Part shown: positions 1-60,956 of the stretch, one piece after another
Layout of the letters: the number at the start of each line of letters is the position of its first letter
Numbering within the stretch: position 1 is the first letter of the stretch
DNA from: Acetonema longum DSM 6540
Lineage (GTDB): Bacteria > Bacillota > Negativicutes > Sporomusales > Acetonemataceae
DNA length: 64,000 nucleotides
Reading direction: 5' to 3'
NCBI RefSeq assembly: GCF_000219125.1
Contig: NZ_AFGF01000126.1
Span: 1-64,000, forward strand
Made by a program: the position numbers and the translations under genes
The notes under the pieces: model-generated
Database searches by the model: none
The model's input: only the letters and a program-made list of their open reading frames with translations
Told to the model about the DNA's origin: nothing

Positions 1-126
1 CCCCATCTGCGTCGTTGCTCCTGCGGGCGGGCGTTCGACGTACCCTGCGAACGTACAGTCTCACGCCCGTCCTCGTCGCGCCTAGCATCTGGGCCCTTTT
101 GAACGGTCCCAGGTTCGAGGCCGCAG
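1..126 (+). repeat. Interspersed structured repeat, copy R1 (cut by window edge)
   Basis: This copy contains the GTTCG/CGAAC hairpin module around 33-53 and the terminal module CATCTGG...CCAGGTTCGAGGCCGCAG at 87-126. It lacks the central long-hairpin module found in R3 and R4: the sequence passes directly from CGTCGCGC to CTAGCATCTGG. The terminal module can fold as CTGGGCCC with GGTCCCAG. The left end may continue outside the window. It lies upstream of the rplS promoter. Confidence 0.85.
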
Positions 127-721: not shown

Positions 722-1249
722 ATGAGCAATTCCCGGCTTGGCCAGGAAGTTAAGGATTGGCTGATTTCCATACTGATTGCTGTGGTATTGGCTTTCTTCA
801 TTCGGTCTTTTATTGTTGAGCTGTATATGGTAGAAGGACCTTCCATGCGTCCCACCTTGGTCAACAGTGAACGGCTGGTGGTCAATAAGTTTATTTACCG
901 CTTTAAAGAGCCGCAGAGGGGTGAAGTTATTGTTTTTCGTTATCCCCGCGACCCCAGTCGCGATTTCATTAAAAGAGTGATCGGCGTTGCCGGCGACAAA
1001 ATTGAGATTCGCGACGGCCAGGTATTTCTTAACGGGCAGCTGCAAAATGAAAATTATATTCTGGAACGCACCCGTGGCTCCTATCCTTTGGTGACCATAC
1101 CCCAAGGGCATATTTTTGTCATGGGAGATAACCGGAACAATTCCGAAGACAGTCGTTTCAGAGATGTGGGCTTTGTGCCGCTCGATTTGGTGAAAGGCAA
1201 GGCCATGGTGGTGTTCTGGCCTTTAGACCATATGAAAACCCTACCCTAG
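722..1249 (+). CDS. lepB: Signal peptidase I
   Basis: This 175-residue type I signal peptidase would cleave signal peptides on the outer face of the cytoplasmic membrane. A single N-terminal membrane anchor spans about residues 12-32. The catalytic serine is Ser41 in EGPSMRPTL and the catalytic lysine is Lys84 in IKRVIGVAGD. Box E (GDNRNNSEDSR) follows near residue 135. The length fits the small Gram-positive SipS-type enzymes. The start has a GAGGTG ribosome site about 6 nt upstream. It lies between rplS and rbgA, with repeat R2 filling the downstream gap. Confidence 0.96.
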   Translation: MSNSRLGQEVKDWLISILIAVVLAFFIRSFIVELYMVEGPSMRPTLVNSERLVVNKFIYRFKEPQRGEVIVFRYPRDPSRDFIKRVIGVAGDKIEIRDGQVFLNGQLQNENYILERTRGSYPLVTIPQGHIFVMGDNRNNSEDSRFRDVGFVPLDLVKGKAMVVFWPLDHMKTLP

Positions 1250-1451
1250 GGACCTGTTGAAAACAGGTCCATCTGCGTCACTTCAGCCTCCTGCGGGCGC
1301 GCGCGTCCTCGTCGCGCTGTATCAGATTCATGGCTTTTCAGAGAGTGGTAGTAGATGATCTCTCATCAGTGAAAAGTCATATGAGTTCTTCACAGTACGG
1401 AGGCGCAGAGCGTCTCTCTGACCTAGCATCTGAACCTTTTGAGGCCGCAGA
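1250..1451 (+). repeat. Interspersed structured repeat, copy R2
   Basis: The copy begins with a perfect hairpin GACCTGTT-gaa-AACAGGTC (1251-1269), which could also act in termination after lepB. It continues through CATCTGCGTC, the central long hairpin (ATTCATGGCTTTTCA pairing with TGAAAAGTCATATGAGTTC), the small hairpin GAGGCGC-AGA-GCGTCTC, and a shortened end GAACCTTTTGAGGCCGCAG. It lacks the GTTCGACGTAC module. It is open in one reading frame and so artificially lengthens the rbgA frame. Confidence 0.9.
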
Positions 1452-1485
1452 TATTTTGCAACAAAATCAAGGAGGGACGCCCTTC

Positions 1486-4661: not shown

Positions 4662-4972
4662 ATGACATCCGCCCGGGAAGATTTCGGCAGTAAAGAAAAG
4701 GAAGAACCCAAAAAGTAATTGCTCTAAAGTATGATAAATCCAAAGACATAGCGCCGAAAGTTGTAGCCAAGGGCGCCGGCTTTATTGCCGAGCAGATTCT
4801 GACGGTAGCCCAAAAGAACGCTGTGCCTGTTTATCAAAATAAGACATTGACCAATGTATTAATGGCGGTGGAAATTGACCGGGAAGTGCCGCCGGAGTTG
4901 TACAACGCCGTAGCTGAGGTGCTGGCTCACATCTATCGTCTGGACCAGGTACTGGGAAAACGCATCAAATAG
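4662..4972 (+). pseudogene. FlhB-like export switch domain protein (YlqH-type), frameshifted
   Basis: ATG 4662 has GGAGG 8 nt upstream and opens a short frame of 18 codons ending at TAA 4716-4718 (…KEEPKK stop). The homologous body continues in the -1 frame from 4715: VIALKYDKSKDIAPKVVAKG … LAHIYRLDQVLGKRIK, stop at 4970-4972. That body is the cytoplasmic FlhB/EscU-type domain without the NPTH cleavage motif and without membrane segments. Joined across the A-run 4710-4714 the product would be about 103 residues, the usual size for YlqH. One missing A in the run explains the break. A sequencing error or a programmed -1 shift at AAAAAG are alternatives. Confidence 0.8.
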
Positions 4973-4973
4973 C

Positions 4974-5222
4974 AGGGGAACGCTGAAAAAGACCCATCTG
5001 CGTTGTTGCTCCTGTGGGCGCTTGACGTACCCTGCGAACGTACAGTCTCACACGCGTCCTCGTCGCGCTGTATCAGAATTCATGACTTTTCAGAGAGTGG
5101 TAATAGTAGATGATCTCTCATGAGTGAAAGTCATATGAATTCTTCAGTACGGAGACGCAGAGCGTCTCTCTGACCTAGCATCTGGACCTTTTTAAACGGG
5201 CTCAGGTTCGAGGCCACAGAAA
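4974..5222 (+). repeat. Interspersed structured repeat, copy R3 (most complete)
   Basis: All modules are present. The 5' terminus (GAACGCTGAAAAAGACCCATCTG) leads into the GACGTACCCTGCGAACGTAC module and then a long hairpin, GAATTCATGACTTTTCA (5076-5092) pairing with TGAAAGTCATATGAATTC (5125-5142). A perfect hairpin follows, GAGACGC-AGA-GCGTCTC (5152-5168). The 3' terminus runs from CATCTGGACC through CAGGTTCGAGGCCACAG. The copy ends about 20 nt before the yraN ribosome binding site. Confidence 0.92.
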
Positions 5223-8153: not shown

Positions 8154-9368
8154 ATGCAGTATAATCCGCGGGTACTAAAAATTCAGACTCTGCAGCAGGC
8201 CAGCGAAGAGCTGACTAAAATCCAATGTGATCCTTATGGGGTGGCCCTGATGACTCCCAAAAGCCTCTTTAAGACGATTAAGCTGGAAGGAGTGCCGGCC
8301 AAAGCTGCGAATCTTCTTAAACAAACTTTTCTTGCCAAAGGCGGGGAGGTGGCGGTTGCCAGGGGTACAGCCGATTTAAGCATCGAACGCACGGATCTTT
8401 TGATCCATGCTACGTTTAAACAGTATCGCAGCGCTTTGTCTCAGCTTAAAATGCAGCCTTGGGGGCTGCCGGCAGTTGCTGAATCCATTGACAAAGTTCT
8501 TTATTATACGGAAAATTTCCCCGTCCGTCACTATACCTGGGATGAACGGACGTTGGACATCCGGCCGAACAAAACTTTAATCATGGGGATTCTAAATATT
8601 ACACCGGATTCATTTTCTGATGGCGGCCGCTATAATAATCTGGATGCTGCTGCCGAGCGGGCTCAGGAGCTTATCGAAGCCGGCGCGGATATTCTGGACA
8701 TAGGAGCTGAGTCGACCCGGCCTTATGGCGCCAGTCCGGTTTCCGCCGAAGAAGAGGCAGAACGTCTCCTGCCGGTCCTGGAGAAACTCGTACAACAGAT
8801 TTCAACGCCAATTTCCATTGATACCTATAAGCCTCAGGTTGCTGAAGCCGCGTTAAAAATAGGGGCCCATATGATTAATGATGTGTGGGGATTGCAAAAG
8901 AATCCTGAGATGGCGAAAATAGCAGCCAAACACAAGGTTCCGGTCATCATTATGCATAATCAGCTGGAAACACGCTATGATAAGGATTTGCTTTCAACCA
9001 TCGCCGCATCTTTGCAAAAAAGCATAGATATCGGTTTAGTAGCAGGCATACCTTTTGAGAATTTTATTATTGATCCGGGAATTGGCTTTGCAAAAACTTC
9101 ACAGCATAACTTGCAGGTGCTCGCACGGCTGGAAGAGTTGAAGATTCTGGGGTGCCCCATTTTAATCGGTACATCCCGCAAGAAGTTTATCGGTGAGATT
9201 TTAGATCTGCCGGTGGAAGAACGGGTGGAAGGGACTGCTGCCACGGTAGGATGGGCCATTAATCAAGGTGCCAGTATTGTCCGGGTGCACGATGTCAAAA
9301 CCATCGCCCGCGTTGCAAAAATGACAGATGCAATTATGGAAAAAGTGACAACTGCAACTTGCGAATAA
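8154..9368 (+). CDS. folP: Dihydropteroate synthase with N-terminal extension
   Basis: DHPS joins p-aminobenzoate to the pterin pyrophosphate in folate synthesis. The pterin-binding TIM barrel starts near residue 138 (TLIMGILNITPDSFSDGG) and contains DIGAESTRPYG, ISIDTYKPQVAEAALK and the C-terminal RVHDVKTI. In front of it lie about 135 residues with no motif I recognise; this long form occurs in some Firmicutes. I prefer ATG 8154 (404 residues) because GGAGGG sits 4 nt upstream. ATG 8130 is in frame but has no ribosome site. folB and folK follow. Confidence 0.95.
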   Translation: MQYNPRVLKIQTLQQASEELTKIQCDPYGVALMTPKSLFKTIKLEGVPAKAANLLKQTFLAKGGEVAVARGTADLSIERTDLLIHATFKQYRSALSQLKMQPWGLPAVAESIDKVLYYTENFPVRHYTWDERTLDIRPNKTLIMGILNITPDSFSDGGRYNNLDAAAERAQELIEAGADILDIGAESTRPYGASPVSAEEEAERLLPVLEKLVQQISTPISIDTYKPQVAEAALKIGAHMINDVWGLQKNPEMAKIAAKHKVPVIIMHNQLETRYDKDLLSTIAASLQKSIDIGLVAGIPFENFIIDPGIGFAKTSQHNLQVLARLEELKILGCPILIGTSRKKFIGEILDLPVEERVEGTAATVGWAINQGASIVRVHDVKTIARVAKMTDAIMEKVTTATCE

Positions 9369-16190: not shown

Positions 16191-17099
16191 ATGGAACGGT
16201 TGAATGATCTGATACAACAATATATGTTATATTTACAGGTGGAAAAAAACGCCTCCCAGCACACCGTTCATAGCTATCGGGCAGACATTGACCATTTTAT
16301 TCTGTTTGTCCAGCAACAAGGTGCTGGTGAGGCTCTTTTTAGTCAGATAAAACCCATTCATATCCGGGCTTACCTGGTGGAATTGAACAAAGATCAGTAT
16401 GCAAGGCGTACAGTGGCTAGAAAGATTGCCTGTCTGCGATCTTTTTACCGCTTTTTATGCCGGGAAAATTATTTGACCGACAATCCTTTTGCCGGGATTC
16501 ATACGCCAAAGCTGGAAAAAAAACTCCCTGTTTTTCTGGATGCCGTGGAAGTAAAGGATATGTTGGAACTTCCGGGCAACGATCTTTTAGGACGAAGAGA
16601 CGCCGCACTGCTGGAAACTCTCTATGCTACCGGCGCGCGGGTGAGTGAATTGGTAGGACTCGGGATAGGCGACCTGGATTTGGTGAATCGGTTTGTTCTG
16701 CTGTTCGGCAAGGGCGCTAAAGAGAGAGTTGTGCCCATTGGCAGAACGGCTGTCCGAGCTCTGGAATACTATCTGACTGTGATCAGGCCTCAGTTATATT
16801 CCCGTCATAAGGGAAGCGTTCATCAAACATTGTTTCTTAATAGAAACGGCGGCCCACTAACAGACCGCAGTGTTCGCCGAATGATCGACAAGTACGTGGA
16901 AATCCTGGCTTTAAAAAAACATGTAACGCCTCATACCATCCGGCATAGTTTTGCGACCCATTTGCTGGATAACGGAGCCGATCTGCGTTTCGTCCAGGAG
17001 CTTCTAGGCCATGTAAACTTGTCTACGACGCAGCTTTATACTCATGTGACAAAAGAGCGTCTTAAGGCAGTATACCGAAATGCGCACCCACGCGCATAG
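16191..17099 (+). CDS. xerC: Tyrosine recombinase XerC
   Basis: The 302-residue site-specific recombinase would resolve chromosome dimers at dif with XerD. It has an N-terminal SAM-like core-binding domain (about 1-105) and a catalytic domain with the full active set: Arg150 (ATGARVSEL), Lys174, His248 and Arg251 (HTIRHSF), His274 (LGHVN) and Tyr283 (QLYTHV). Location between trmFO and hslV is the standard Firmicutes position of xerC (codV), so it is chromosomal housekeeping and not a phage integrase. No strong ribosome site is seen before ATG 16191. Confidence 0.95.
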   Translation: MERLNDLIQQYMLYLQVEKNASQHTVHSYRADIDHFILFVQQQGAGEALFSQIKPIHIRAYLVELNKDQYARRTVARKIACLRSFYRFLCRENYLTDNPFAGIHTPKLEKKLPVFLDAVEVKDMLELPGNDLLGRRDAALLETLYATGARVSELVGLGIGDLDLVNRFVLLFGKGAKERVVPIGRTAVRALEYYLTVIRPQLYSRHKGSVHQTLFLNRNGGPLTDRSVRRMIDKYVEILALKKHVTPHTIRHSFATHLLDNGADLRFVQELLGHVNLSTTQLYTHVTKERLKAVYRNAHPRA

Positions 17100-17100
17100 G

Positions 17101-17463
17101 AGACCGTTGAAAAAGGCACATCTGCGTCACTTCACCTCCGATGGACGGATCAGTCAGAAAACGTCTCTTTTCGGATTCTAGGCAATAGATATTTTGCTGT
17201 GGCTACGCCCGAGAAGCGATCTGCTTTCTTCCTGGTCTTACGATGCTTCGCATCTTTTTAGTATCGACGTACCCTGCGAACGTACAGTCTCACGCCCGTC
17301 CTTGTCGTGCTGTATCAGAATTCGCGACTTTCGGGAGAGTGATGATAGTGAGTGGTTCTTATAACCCGAAAAGTCGTCTGAATTCCTCACTAATGCGGCA
17401 ACACAGACGTTGCTCTTACCTAGCATCTCGACTTTTTTGAACGGCCCCAGATTCGAGGTAAAA
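17101..17463 (+). repeat. Interspersed structured repeat, copy R4 (longest, with insertion)
   Basis: The copy starts with GACCGTTGAAAAAGGC at 17102 and ends with TTTTTTGAACGGCCCCAGATTCGAGG. Between these lie an extra segment of about 120 nt (about 17141-17262) not in the other copies, the GACGTACCCTGCGAACGTAC module, the long hairpin GAATTCGCGACTTTCGGG (17318-17335) with CCCGAAAAGTCGTCTGAATTC (17365-17385), and a small hairpin GCAAC/GTTGC (17398-17413). The extra segment includes GATGC-ttc-GCATC followed by five Ts (17242-17259), which may be a weak terminator. This fills the gap of about 400 nt between xerC and hslV. Confidence 0.9.
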
Positions 17464-17497
17464 GGTGAGTTCCATAATAAACAGTAGGAGGGCTTTT

Positions 17498-26607: not shown

Positions 26608-26645
26608 ACGGATCGTTTGAACGACTCCAGATTCGAGGCCACAGA
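26608..26645 (+). repeat. Repeat remnant R6 between fliI and fliJ
   Basis: TTTGAACG at 26617-26624 followed by CTCCAGATTCGAGGCCACAG matches the last part of the interspersed repeat family (compare R3 and R4 ends). It starts directly after the fliI stop and ends about 24 nt before the fliJ start. Confidence 0.8.
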
Positions 26646-54856: not shown

Positions 54857-55406
54857 GGAAATCCTTTCAAGGCATGAAGAAAGAATGCAAAAAGCGGTAG
54901 AGGCTCTTAGAAAAGACTACCAAACTTTGCGGGCCGGCAGAGCAACTCCGGCGATTTTAGACAAAATTACGGTCGACTATTATGGCACTCCAACCCCGGT
55001 AAATCAAGTGGGCAATATTTCAGTGCCCGAACCACGTATGATTGTCATTCAGCCCTGGGAAAAAACCATGTTGGGCCCCATCGAAAAGGCAATATTAAAA
55101 TCTGATTTAGGTTTAACTCCCAGTAGTGACGGATCGGTTATCCGTCTATTAATCCCACAGCTTACCCAGCAAAGACGCACTGAACTGGTGAAGGTAATCC
55201 ATAAAAAAGCCGAAGAAGCGCGGGTAGCTATCCGCAATGTTCGGCGCGACGCTAATGAAGCCATCAAGAAAGTGGAAAAAGACAAGCTAATCTCTGAAGA
55301 TGAAAATAAAAAAGCTCAGGATGATATGCAAAAACTGACTGATAAATACATCAAAGACATCGATACGGTGATGACGGCCAAGGAAAAAGAAATTATGGAA
55401 GTGTAA
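54846..55406 (+). CDS. frr: Ribosome recycling factor
   Basis: RRF splits post-termination ribosomes with EF-G. From ATG 54846 the product has 186 residues, the standard length, with [14 protein letters not shown] and [41 protein letters not shown], and a C-terminal three-helix bundle. The ribosome site GGGAGGG lies within pyrH. The longer open frame upstream is only pyrH read in another phase. Confidence 0.97.
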
Positions 55407-55500
55407 GGGAACCTTTGAAAATTCTGCACTGTACGGAGACGCAGAGCGTCTCTCTTACCTAGCATCTGGACCTTTTTGAACGGGTACCAGGTTCGGGGAT
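55407..55500 (+). repeat. Interspersed structured repeat, partial copy R5
   Basis: A short start GGGAACCTTTGAAAATTC joins directly to the last modules: CTGTACG, the perfect hairpin GAGACGC-AGA-GCGTCTC (55436-55452), CTTACCTAGCATCTGGACC and the end TTTTTGAACGGGTACCAGGTTCGGGG. The long central hairpin is missing. It fills the gap between frr and the following small gene. Confidence 0.88.
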
Positions 55501-59876: not shown

Positions 59877-60956
59877 ATGATGCTCCGTAGAGATACTAGA
59901 CCGATTTATATCGGGAAAGTCGGAATCGGCGGTCACATGCCCATATCCGTCCAGTCCATGACTAATACCAAAACTACCAATATCCCGGCTACCGTGGAAC
60001 AAATTCACCGTCTGACAGAGGCCGGCTGCGATATCGTCAGAATTGCTATTCCCGACATGGCGGCAGCCCAGGCGGTGGAGTCTCTGAAAAACTCGGTCAG
60101 TGTGCCGTTAGTAGCTGACATCCACTTCGATTATCGTCTGGCCATTGCTGTTCTGGAGCGAGGGATTGACGCGCTTCGCATCAATCCCGGCAATATCGGG
60201 GATCCGTCCGGTGTCAGAGCGGTGGTGACCGAAGCCCAAAAACGGCGGGTTCCTATTCGCATCGGCGTCAACGCCGGATCTCTTGATAAAAAATTATTGG
60301 CCAAATACGGCGGCCATCCCACACCGGAAGCGATGGTTGAAAGTGCGCTGGAACATATAAAGATTCTGGAAGAGCTGGATTTTTTCGATATTAAGATTTC
60401 TTTAAAGGCCAATGATGTACCGACAACGATCAGAGCTTACACCTTGATGTCTGAGCAGGCGAATTATCCGTTGCATTTAGGGATTACTGAGGCTGGAACC
60501 ATATCATCCGGGGTCATCAAGTCGGCTGTGGGCATTGGCGCCTTACTGGCTCAAGGGATTGGCGACACCATTCGGGTATCCTTAACCGGTGATCCGGTGG
60601 AAGAAGTGAAGGTAGCCAGCGAAATTCTCAAATCACTGGGTTTGCGGCAATATGGCCCGACACTGGTATCCTGTCCTACCTGTGGTCGATGCAATATTAA
60701 TTTGGTGAACATAGCTAATCAGGTAGAACAAAAATTGCGCGACATCAAAAAACCGATCAAAGTGGCGGTTATGGGCTGCGTGGTGAATGGCCCGGGCGAG
60801 GCCAGAGAGGCTGATATCGGTATTGCCGGCGGCACGGAATACGGCCTGATTTTCGCTAAGGGAGAAATACTGAAAAAAGTGCCGGAACCTCAGTTGCTCA
60901 CGGAGTTGTTCTCGGAAATAGACAAACTTGCTACAGAAGGTAAGGGGGAACCATAA
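59877..60956 (+). CDS. ispG: 4-hydroxy-3-methylbut-2-en-1-yl diphosphate synthase (IspG)
   Basis: IspG is a [4Fe-4S] enzyme of the MEP pathway. The 359-residue product has the TIM barrel start ([17 protein letters not shown] … [12 protein letters not shown] … INPGNIG) and the cluster cysteines in SCPTCGRCN and [12 protein letters not shown], with the catalytic Glu of GEARE. ATG 59877 begins 24 nt after rseP with GCGGGGG upstream. Its stop abuts the proS ATG. Confidence 0.97.

Follow-up and report, generated by a model that had tools for sequence, protein, structure and literature searches.

A two-hairpin repeat unit of Acetonema longum and other Negativicutes, probably a family of miniature mobile DNA hairpins

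Main finding

Two neighbouring hairpins located between xerC and hslV of Acetonema longum DSM 6540 form a single unit of about 110 nt, consisting of a long hairpin, bulged on its 3' arm, and a small hairpin after it. The unit is repeated through its own genome, stands alone in five other Negativicutes, and its two stems remain paired while their sequences change. We consider that these units are probably (roughly 60%) a family of miniature, non-autonomous mobile DNA hairpins, REPIN-like in kind, which in two genomes have the terminator as their target. The analysis started from the window, that is, the whole stretch of 64,000 nucleotides under study (contig NZ_AFGF01000126.1, positions 1 to 64,000), where the units lie within copies of a larger MITE-like element.

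The element and its units in the window

The features of the window are the following; the names xerC and hslV come from the reading of the ORF translations.

1..120, + strand: element copy R1, cut by the window start, without the two-hairpin unit
1246-1248, + strand: stop codon TAG of the ORF upstream of R2, at the left end of R2
1247..1452, + strand: element copy R2, carrying a unit at 1319-1432
4974..5213, + strand: element copy R3, carrying a unit at 5070-5184
17097..17099, + strand: stop codon TAG of xerC (ORF 16191-17099), overlapping the left end of R4
17098..17475, + strand: MITE-like element R4, between xerC and hslV (53 matching pieces in the own genome; end profiles over 59 copies)
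17098-17116, + strand: left end of R4, AGGAGACCGTTGAAAAAGG (end profiles over 59 copies)
17151..17267, + strand: diverged first unit copy inside R4, the 'B' unit (two covariance models)
17312..17429, + strand: two-hairpin unit of R4 as modelled (covariance model R1, 111.9 bits)
17318..17385, + strand: long hairpin of R4, with 6 bp, a bulge on the 3' arm and about 12 bp
17398..17413, + strand: small hairpin of R4, GCAAC/GTTGC
17432-17448, + strand: right inverted repeat of R4, CTTTTTTGAACGGCCCC, followed by an extension to the right that is conserved in part and has no sharp end
26616..26638, + strand: trace of the right extension of the element (blastn, 23 nt, 91% identity)
55405..55500, + strand: partial element with the right part of a unit and the right end (covariance model R1, 47.6 bits)

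All the interspersed copies of the element in the window (R1, R2, R3, R4 and the two traces) are intergenic. R1 represents an empty site, since it reads CGCGC directly followed by CTAGCATCTGG where R4 holds its unit; the insert proper of R4 extends from about 17311 to 17419. The 'B' unit of R4 scored 31.8 bits (E 1.4e-5) with covariance model R1 and 66.8 bits (E 2.8e-11) with model R2.

The element has the terminal inverted repeats and the absence of coding sequence that characterise a MITE, with GGGACCGTTGAAAAAGG at the left and CCTTTTTGAACGGTCCC at the right over the 59 copies. It starts with AGGRGACCGTTGAAAAAGG, and its right repeat is subterminal, being followed by about 30 more conserved bases; no target-site duplication was seen in the end profiles. 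In 46 of the 59 copies the left end is entered by an ORF of 80 codons or more, and in 44 of these 46 the stop falls within -12..+5 of GTTG; the stop codon is thus located inside the end of the element or next to it, as in xerC. At 17097-17105, 1246-1254 and 4970-4986 of the window the stop codon of the gene upstream adjoins the element or is supplied by it. This placement could be explained either by the targeting of gene ends or by the survival of those insertions that trim only the C-terminus. Over the 59 copies, moreover, the two ends of a given copy agree with each other at the outer positions of the inverted repeat (-2 to -5 and +8) more often than ends taken from different copies do (permutation 0-4 of 2000), the pattern that copying of one end from the other would leave.

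In R4 the outer stem is formed by GAATTC (17318-17323) paired with GAATTC (17380-17385), and inside these arms the inner stem is CGCGACTTTCGGG / CCCGAAAAGTCGTC; R3 has CATGACTTTTCA / TGAAAGTCATATG. The small hairpin is GAGACGC/GCGTCTC in R3, and in R4 it is reduced to the 5 bp given above. The inner stem of R4 has lost one T, in such a way that TTT faces AAAA and one base is left unpaired. These are the sequences from which a sequence-only reading of the window had proposed that both hairpins stay paired between R3 and R4 while their sequence differs, and the G-T pair that it described in the small hairpin of R2 is also present. The pairing contrast between the two copies is real, but it separates two sequence subfamilies and does not record a direct change from R3 to R4. 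When folded as DNA, the long hairpins gave z values of -3.44 (R4), -3.94 (R3) and -2.76 (R2), with 1, 0 and 3, respectively, of 200 shuffles as stable as the native sequence. The long hairpin of the diverged unit of R4 (17155-17224) gave z +0.45 under the same treatment, and the whole 363-nt element folded as + strand RNA was unremarkable (z -0.17).

Copies in the Acetonema longum genome

Covariance model R1, built from 18 copies, gave 89 unit matches in the own genome at E<=1e-3, and model R2, built from 124 aligned matches, raised the count to at least 126, a lower bound because 130 of 1620 candidates were scored with it. The genome is a draft assembly, and many of its contigs end inside or just beside elements (among them C295, C69, C293, C268, C161, C65, C79, C269 and C135); the true copy number is thus probably above the count. 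A motif-based sort of the 59 elements with both ends placed both units in 11 of them, only the unit studied here in 32, only the other unit in 5 and neither in 11, although some of these last 11 are long enough to hold decayed units. The units thus occupy fixed points of the element, which are filled in some copies and empty in others. Tandem units or remnants occur in contigs C19 and C81, where 8816-9040 and 60075-60307, respectively, are head-to-tail pairs with a period of about 105-111 nt, antisense to the neighbour genes.

With respect to the neighbouring genes, 38 units were sense to both and 13 antisense to both (p 0.0006), while 9 lay between convergent and 4 between divergent genes. 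These counts rest on crude ORF calls for 86 of the 89 matches (three had no fetched locus), with 14 of the 86 set aside as lying inside an ORF and 8 having one neighbour in reach. Among the stand-alone copies, 7 of 10 were antisense to both neighbours.

Covariation in both hairpins

Already in the alignment of 18 copies, 24 cells were changed on both sides of a pair, with a score of 0.167 against 0.053-0.081 for slid partners. The copies were then tested in the manner of R-scape, not with R-scape itself, by means of a G statistic with average-product correction and a null in which the parsimony changes of each column were redistributed on a FastTree tree. For the own genome, 64 copies were used, after 6 of 70 had been dropped for too many gaps: at E<0.05, 3 of 25 pairs covaried in the model-fitted alignment and 4 of 25 in a MAFFT alignment made without structure, against none of 6,417 other column pairs and none in six slid controls. 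A second set comprised 84 units of six genomes, mostly other genomes (13 units came from the own genome, three of them MITE-borne), one truncated match, L068:1-66, having been left out. Here 5 of 25 pairs covaried in the fitted and 4 of 25 in the unfitted alignment, against 0 of 6,645 and 0 of 6,878 other pairs; one slid pair, at -1, was significant in each.

The covarying pairs belong to both hairpins, and those of the small hairpin separate subfamilies common to many copies. Aligning all copies to look for covarying pairs in both stems, as the sequence-only reading had proposed, thus gave a positive answer in its own and in other genomes. That reading had also claimed selection on structure and not on sequence. 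The stems do stay paired from genus to genus where sequence identity is low, but the second part of the claim holds only by half: CAGAA, CTTTTCGG/CCGAAAAG and TTC show strong conservation between genera.

Pairing at the level of DNA or RNA

Copies selected as sense-strand RNA should favour G-U pairs. In the tree of the 64 copies, the changes on terminal branches gave G-U in 33 cases and A-C in 41 (binomial p 0.42), broke the pair in another way in 29 and were double changes to another Watson-Crick pair in 11. In the second set (here 85 aligned matches) 37 cells were G-U and 61 A-C (p 0.02); judging from the aligned sequences, part of this A-C excess is a fixed A-C position together with a bulge that is shifted in some groups. 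Since G-U does not exceed A-C, these results argue against selection of the copies as sense-strand RNA, and with the unit occurring antisense to its neighbours as well, the idea of selection on RNA put forward from the sequence finds no support.

Stem sites underwent 2.88 changes per site on the terminal branches and loop sites 4.43. Against pure decay stand this lower rate of the stems and the 11 double changes, which are more than such decay would lead one to expect; both might also result from tree errors or from exchange between copies. The data fit best with a DNA structure that is required for movement, the individual copies decaying afterwards. Our conclusion is that the spreading lineages retain the pairing while most single copies decay.

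Units in other genomes

The unit was found in Lucifera butyrica (G003, at least 68 copies) and in the genomes labelled G061 (at least 34), G012 (4), G015 (1) and G067 (1), and nearly all the copies seen in these genomes are stand-alone. At the level of the order, 4 of 28 genomes carry units (A. longum, Lucifera butyrica, G012 and G015); at that of the class, 6 of 300 do at E<=1e-5, which adds G061 and G067, and three genomes of a sister genus of G061 gave none. Among 398 genomes of the phylum the only one with a unit was that of the window itself. As few candidates were scored per genome (12 in the class and 9 in the phylum), the absence outside is weak evidence. An exact-pattern scan of the genome_contigs collection gave 31 stretches, all from Lucifera butyrica, and the same scan of viral_contigs gave no match.

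Tandem units or remnants are also present at L066, L189, L175, L297 and L354, several units following directly after another unit or remnant. In L213 and L357 of Lucifera butyrica the unit comes immediately after a sequence similar to the right end of the window's MITE-like element, and A. longum may therefore not be the only genome with relatives of that element.

Placement behind terminators

In Lucifera butyrica 48 of 53 copies have a T-run within the 15 nt upstream of the unit, while a control region 45-60 nt upstream has one in 7 of 53; in G061 the corresponding figures are 11 of 12 and 0. Further G061 copies, unused before, showed the T-run in 16 of 18 cases (control, 2), which brings the G061 units located just 3' of a terminator T-run to 27 of 30. 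When a hairpin of at least -7 kcal/mol was demanded together with the T-run, it was found in forward orientation directly upstream of 38 of 54 Lucifera copies and in reverse orientation downstream of 2 of 54. Elsewhere the upstream combination was found in 6 of 12 copies of G061, 1 of 1 of G015, 1 of 4 of G012, 0 of 1 of G067 and 0 of 13 of the own-genome set. Placement behind a hairpin and T-run is fixed in two genomes of different families. The stand-alone copies of A. longum follow a T-run in 1 of 13 cases (a set that includes three MITE-borne units), which indicates that the target preference is not universal.

The tsf-pyrH region offers, as a single locus, a comparison of occupied and unoccupied sites. 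A terminator-type inverted repeat lies behind tsf in all ten genomes examined; the unit of G061 starts right after the T-run of this terminator, and the other nine genomes have no unit there (9/9). The units of Lucifera and G061 themselves finish with the small hairpin followed by TTTCTT or TTTATTT, a 3' end that resembles the terminator target.

Search for a mobilising enzyme

No mobilising enzyme linked to the units was found. Genes of Y1 transposases (PF01797) are present in 6 of 6 unit-bearing genomes and in 15 of the 18 unit-free genomes tested, and no credible unit was found beside Y1 genes in 26 loci and in further loci searched, where the best match (24.4 bits, E 0.0044) was of low complexity. 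A Y1 or RAYT protein was therefore rejected as the mobiliser by linkage, as no credible unit lies near the genes in these loci and their presence does not discriminate. The maturase domain of group II introns (PF08388) occurs in 9 of 19 genomes tested, a distribution that does not match that of the units, and was not found in G012, G015, G061 and G067, all of which bear units; the group II reverse transcriptase was discarded because it was not found in these four genomes. The ten proteins flanking the low-copy units of G012, G015 and G067 are regulators, metabolic or housekeeping proteins, not mobility genes.

A model of the long hairpin alone (R3) added 21 placements, mostly whole units and some truncated; in the flanking sequence that was read, none of them was tied to a transposase gene, and no autonomous relative was found among them. 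No target-site duplication was recognised at the units. The window gave no match to Rfam at gathering thresholds, and ten unit loci searched against all Rfam families up to E 5 gave no credible match on the unit and none to a group II intron; on these searches an Rfam family was discarded.

Explanations of the units

If the units are mobile DNA hairpins, a trans-acting protein would recognise the folded single DNA strand and would place the unit on the 3' side of a stem-loop, after its T residues; the resemblance of the unit's own end to this target in Lucifera and G061 would then explain the tandem copies. Pairing would be kept in moving lineages, and single copies would decay regardless of G-U pairing. 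In the window, the units are carried by a MITE-like element that is itself located at the ends of genes. More tentatively, the units may even represent a distinct class of miniature mobile DNA, which would travel as a folded single strand and attach at the stem-loop and T-run of intrinsic terminators. Each unit would bear a copy of this site at its 3' terminus and thereby create a further target wherever it inserts, and an enzyme yet to be found would move it; we regard this as doubtful.

The covariation in both hairpins would also be expected if the unit were transcribed in 3' or 5' untranslated regions and acted as a structured RNA, in stability, processing, termination or read-through, with selection acting on the transcript. 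The excess of sense over antisense copies in A. longum, the fixed orientation after the terminator in Lucifera and G061 and the slower change of stems than of loops point in the same direction. We nevertheless consider this explanation unlikely, given that G-U is not in excess, that most stand-alone copies of A. longum are antisense to both neighbours, that most transcripts would end before a unit located behind a terminator, and that neither the window nor the ten unit loci gave a credible Rfam match. Moreover, compensatory changes are common in REPIN hairpins, according to the available excerpts of PMC3116915, and covariation alone does not call for a functional RNA.

Paired changes can also arise without selection, when a quasipalindrome is corrected by template switching within the hairpin. 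The 11 double Watson-Crick changes on terminal branches, the parity of G-U and A-C and the within-copy match of the outer inverted-repeat positions are what such a mutational cause would leave. Yet the covarying pairs of the small hairpin separate shared subfamilies, pairing persists across genera, and correction alone explains neither the copy number nor the placement behind terminators, which makes this cause quite improbable as the explanation of the units. As for movement in the manner of group IIC introns, in which a trans-acting intron reverse transcriptase would insert an RNA copy of the unit behind terminators, the target type is the same (a stem-loop, then T residues), and DNA hairpins such as terminators are a key determinant for these introns according to the part of a review that was available (PMC3898094). 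The mismatched distribution of PF08388 and the lack of group II intron matches in the ten unit loci make this route very improbable.

The mobile DNA hairpin that we favour and a selected RNA are two easily confused causes of covariation, and here they were told apart by comparing G-U with A-C and private with shared changes. If the terminator target is true, a short mobile hairpin of the Negativicutes would have a safe harbour at gene ends, and the enzyme that mobilises it would become a defined thing to seek.

Comparison with known systems

In the excerpts available of PMC3116915, REPINs and REP sequences, which go with RAYT transposases, form tandem clusters and are thought to be non-autonomous mobile DNA. 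Like them, the units are short, dispersed, extragenic hairpins with compensatory changes and tandem clusters, but a REPIN consists of two inverted REPs that form one hairpin, near a RAYT gene, whereas the unit is made of two different hairpins in a row (PMC3116915, same excerpts). REP/REPIN palindromes have a tag at their foot, GTAG or CGTC, which the title of PMC3733652 names; in its place the left profile of 53 Lucifera copies reads TCRG, and that of 12 G061 copies TAAG, before AAA. The left profile of the A. longum units is mostly TCAG. Thus the units share with REP/REPIN sequences the many dispersed, mostly extragenic copies and the paired hairpin, and differ from them in having no REP tag at the hairpin foot, no RAYT linkage found, and terminator T-runs in two genomes.

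Elements of the IS200/IS605 family, such as IS608, have single-stranded hairpin ends and insert 3' of a short fixed sequence. The units differ from them in that no autonomous copy and no linked Y1 gene were found. IS200/IS605 elements are mentioned in the part of PMC3116915 at hand.

Among the pneumococcal repeats, BOX is modular, SPRITE is terminator-like, RUP measures about 107 bp, and the repeats insert in one another (PMC3049150, in its accessible part). The likeness to the unit is one of description, taken from that part of the source, and the unit has a conserved inner sequence and occurs alone or inside a MITE-like element. In the literature, as far as its accessible parts go, we found no report of such an element in this group, or of this one among the elements that target terminators. 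Group IIC introns insert beside DNA stem-loops such as terminators, a kind of site that they share with the unit; according to the available parts of PMC3898094 and PMC10190682 these introns are large ribozymes with their own reverse transcriptase, whereas the unit measures about 110 nt.
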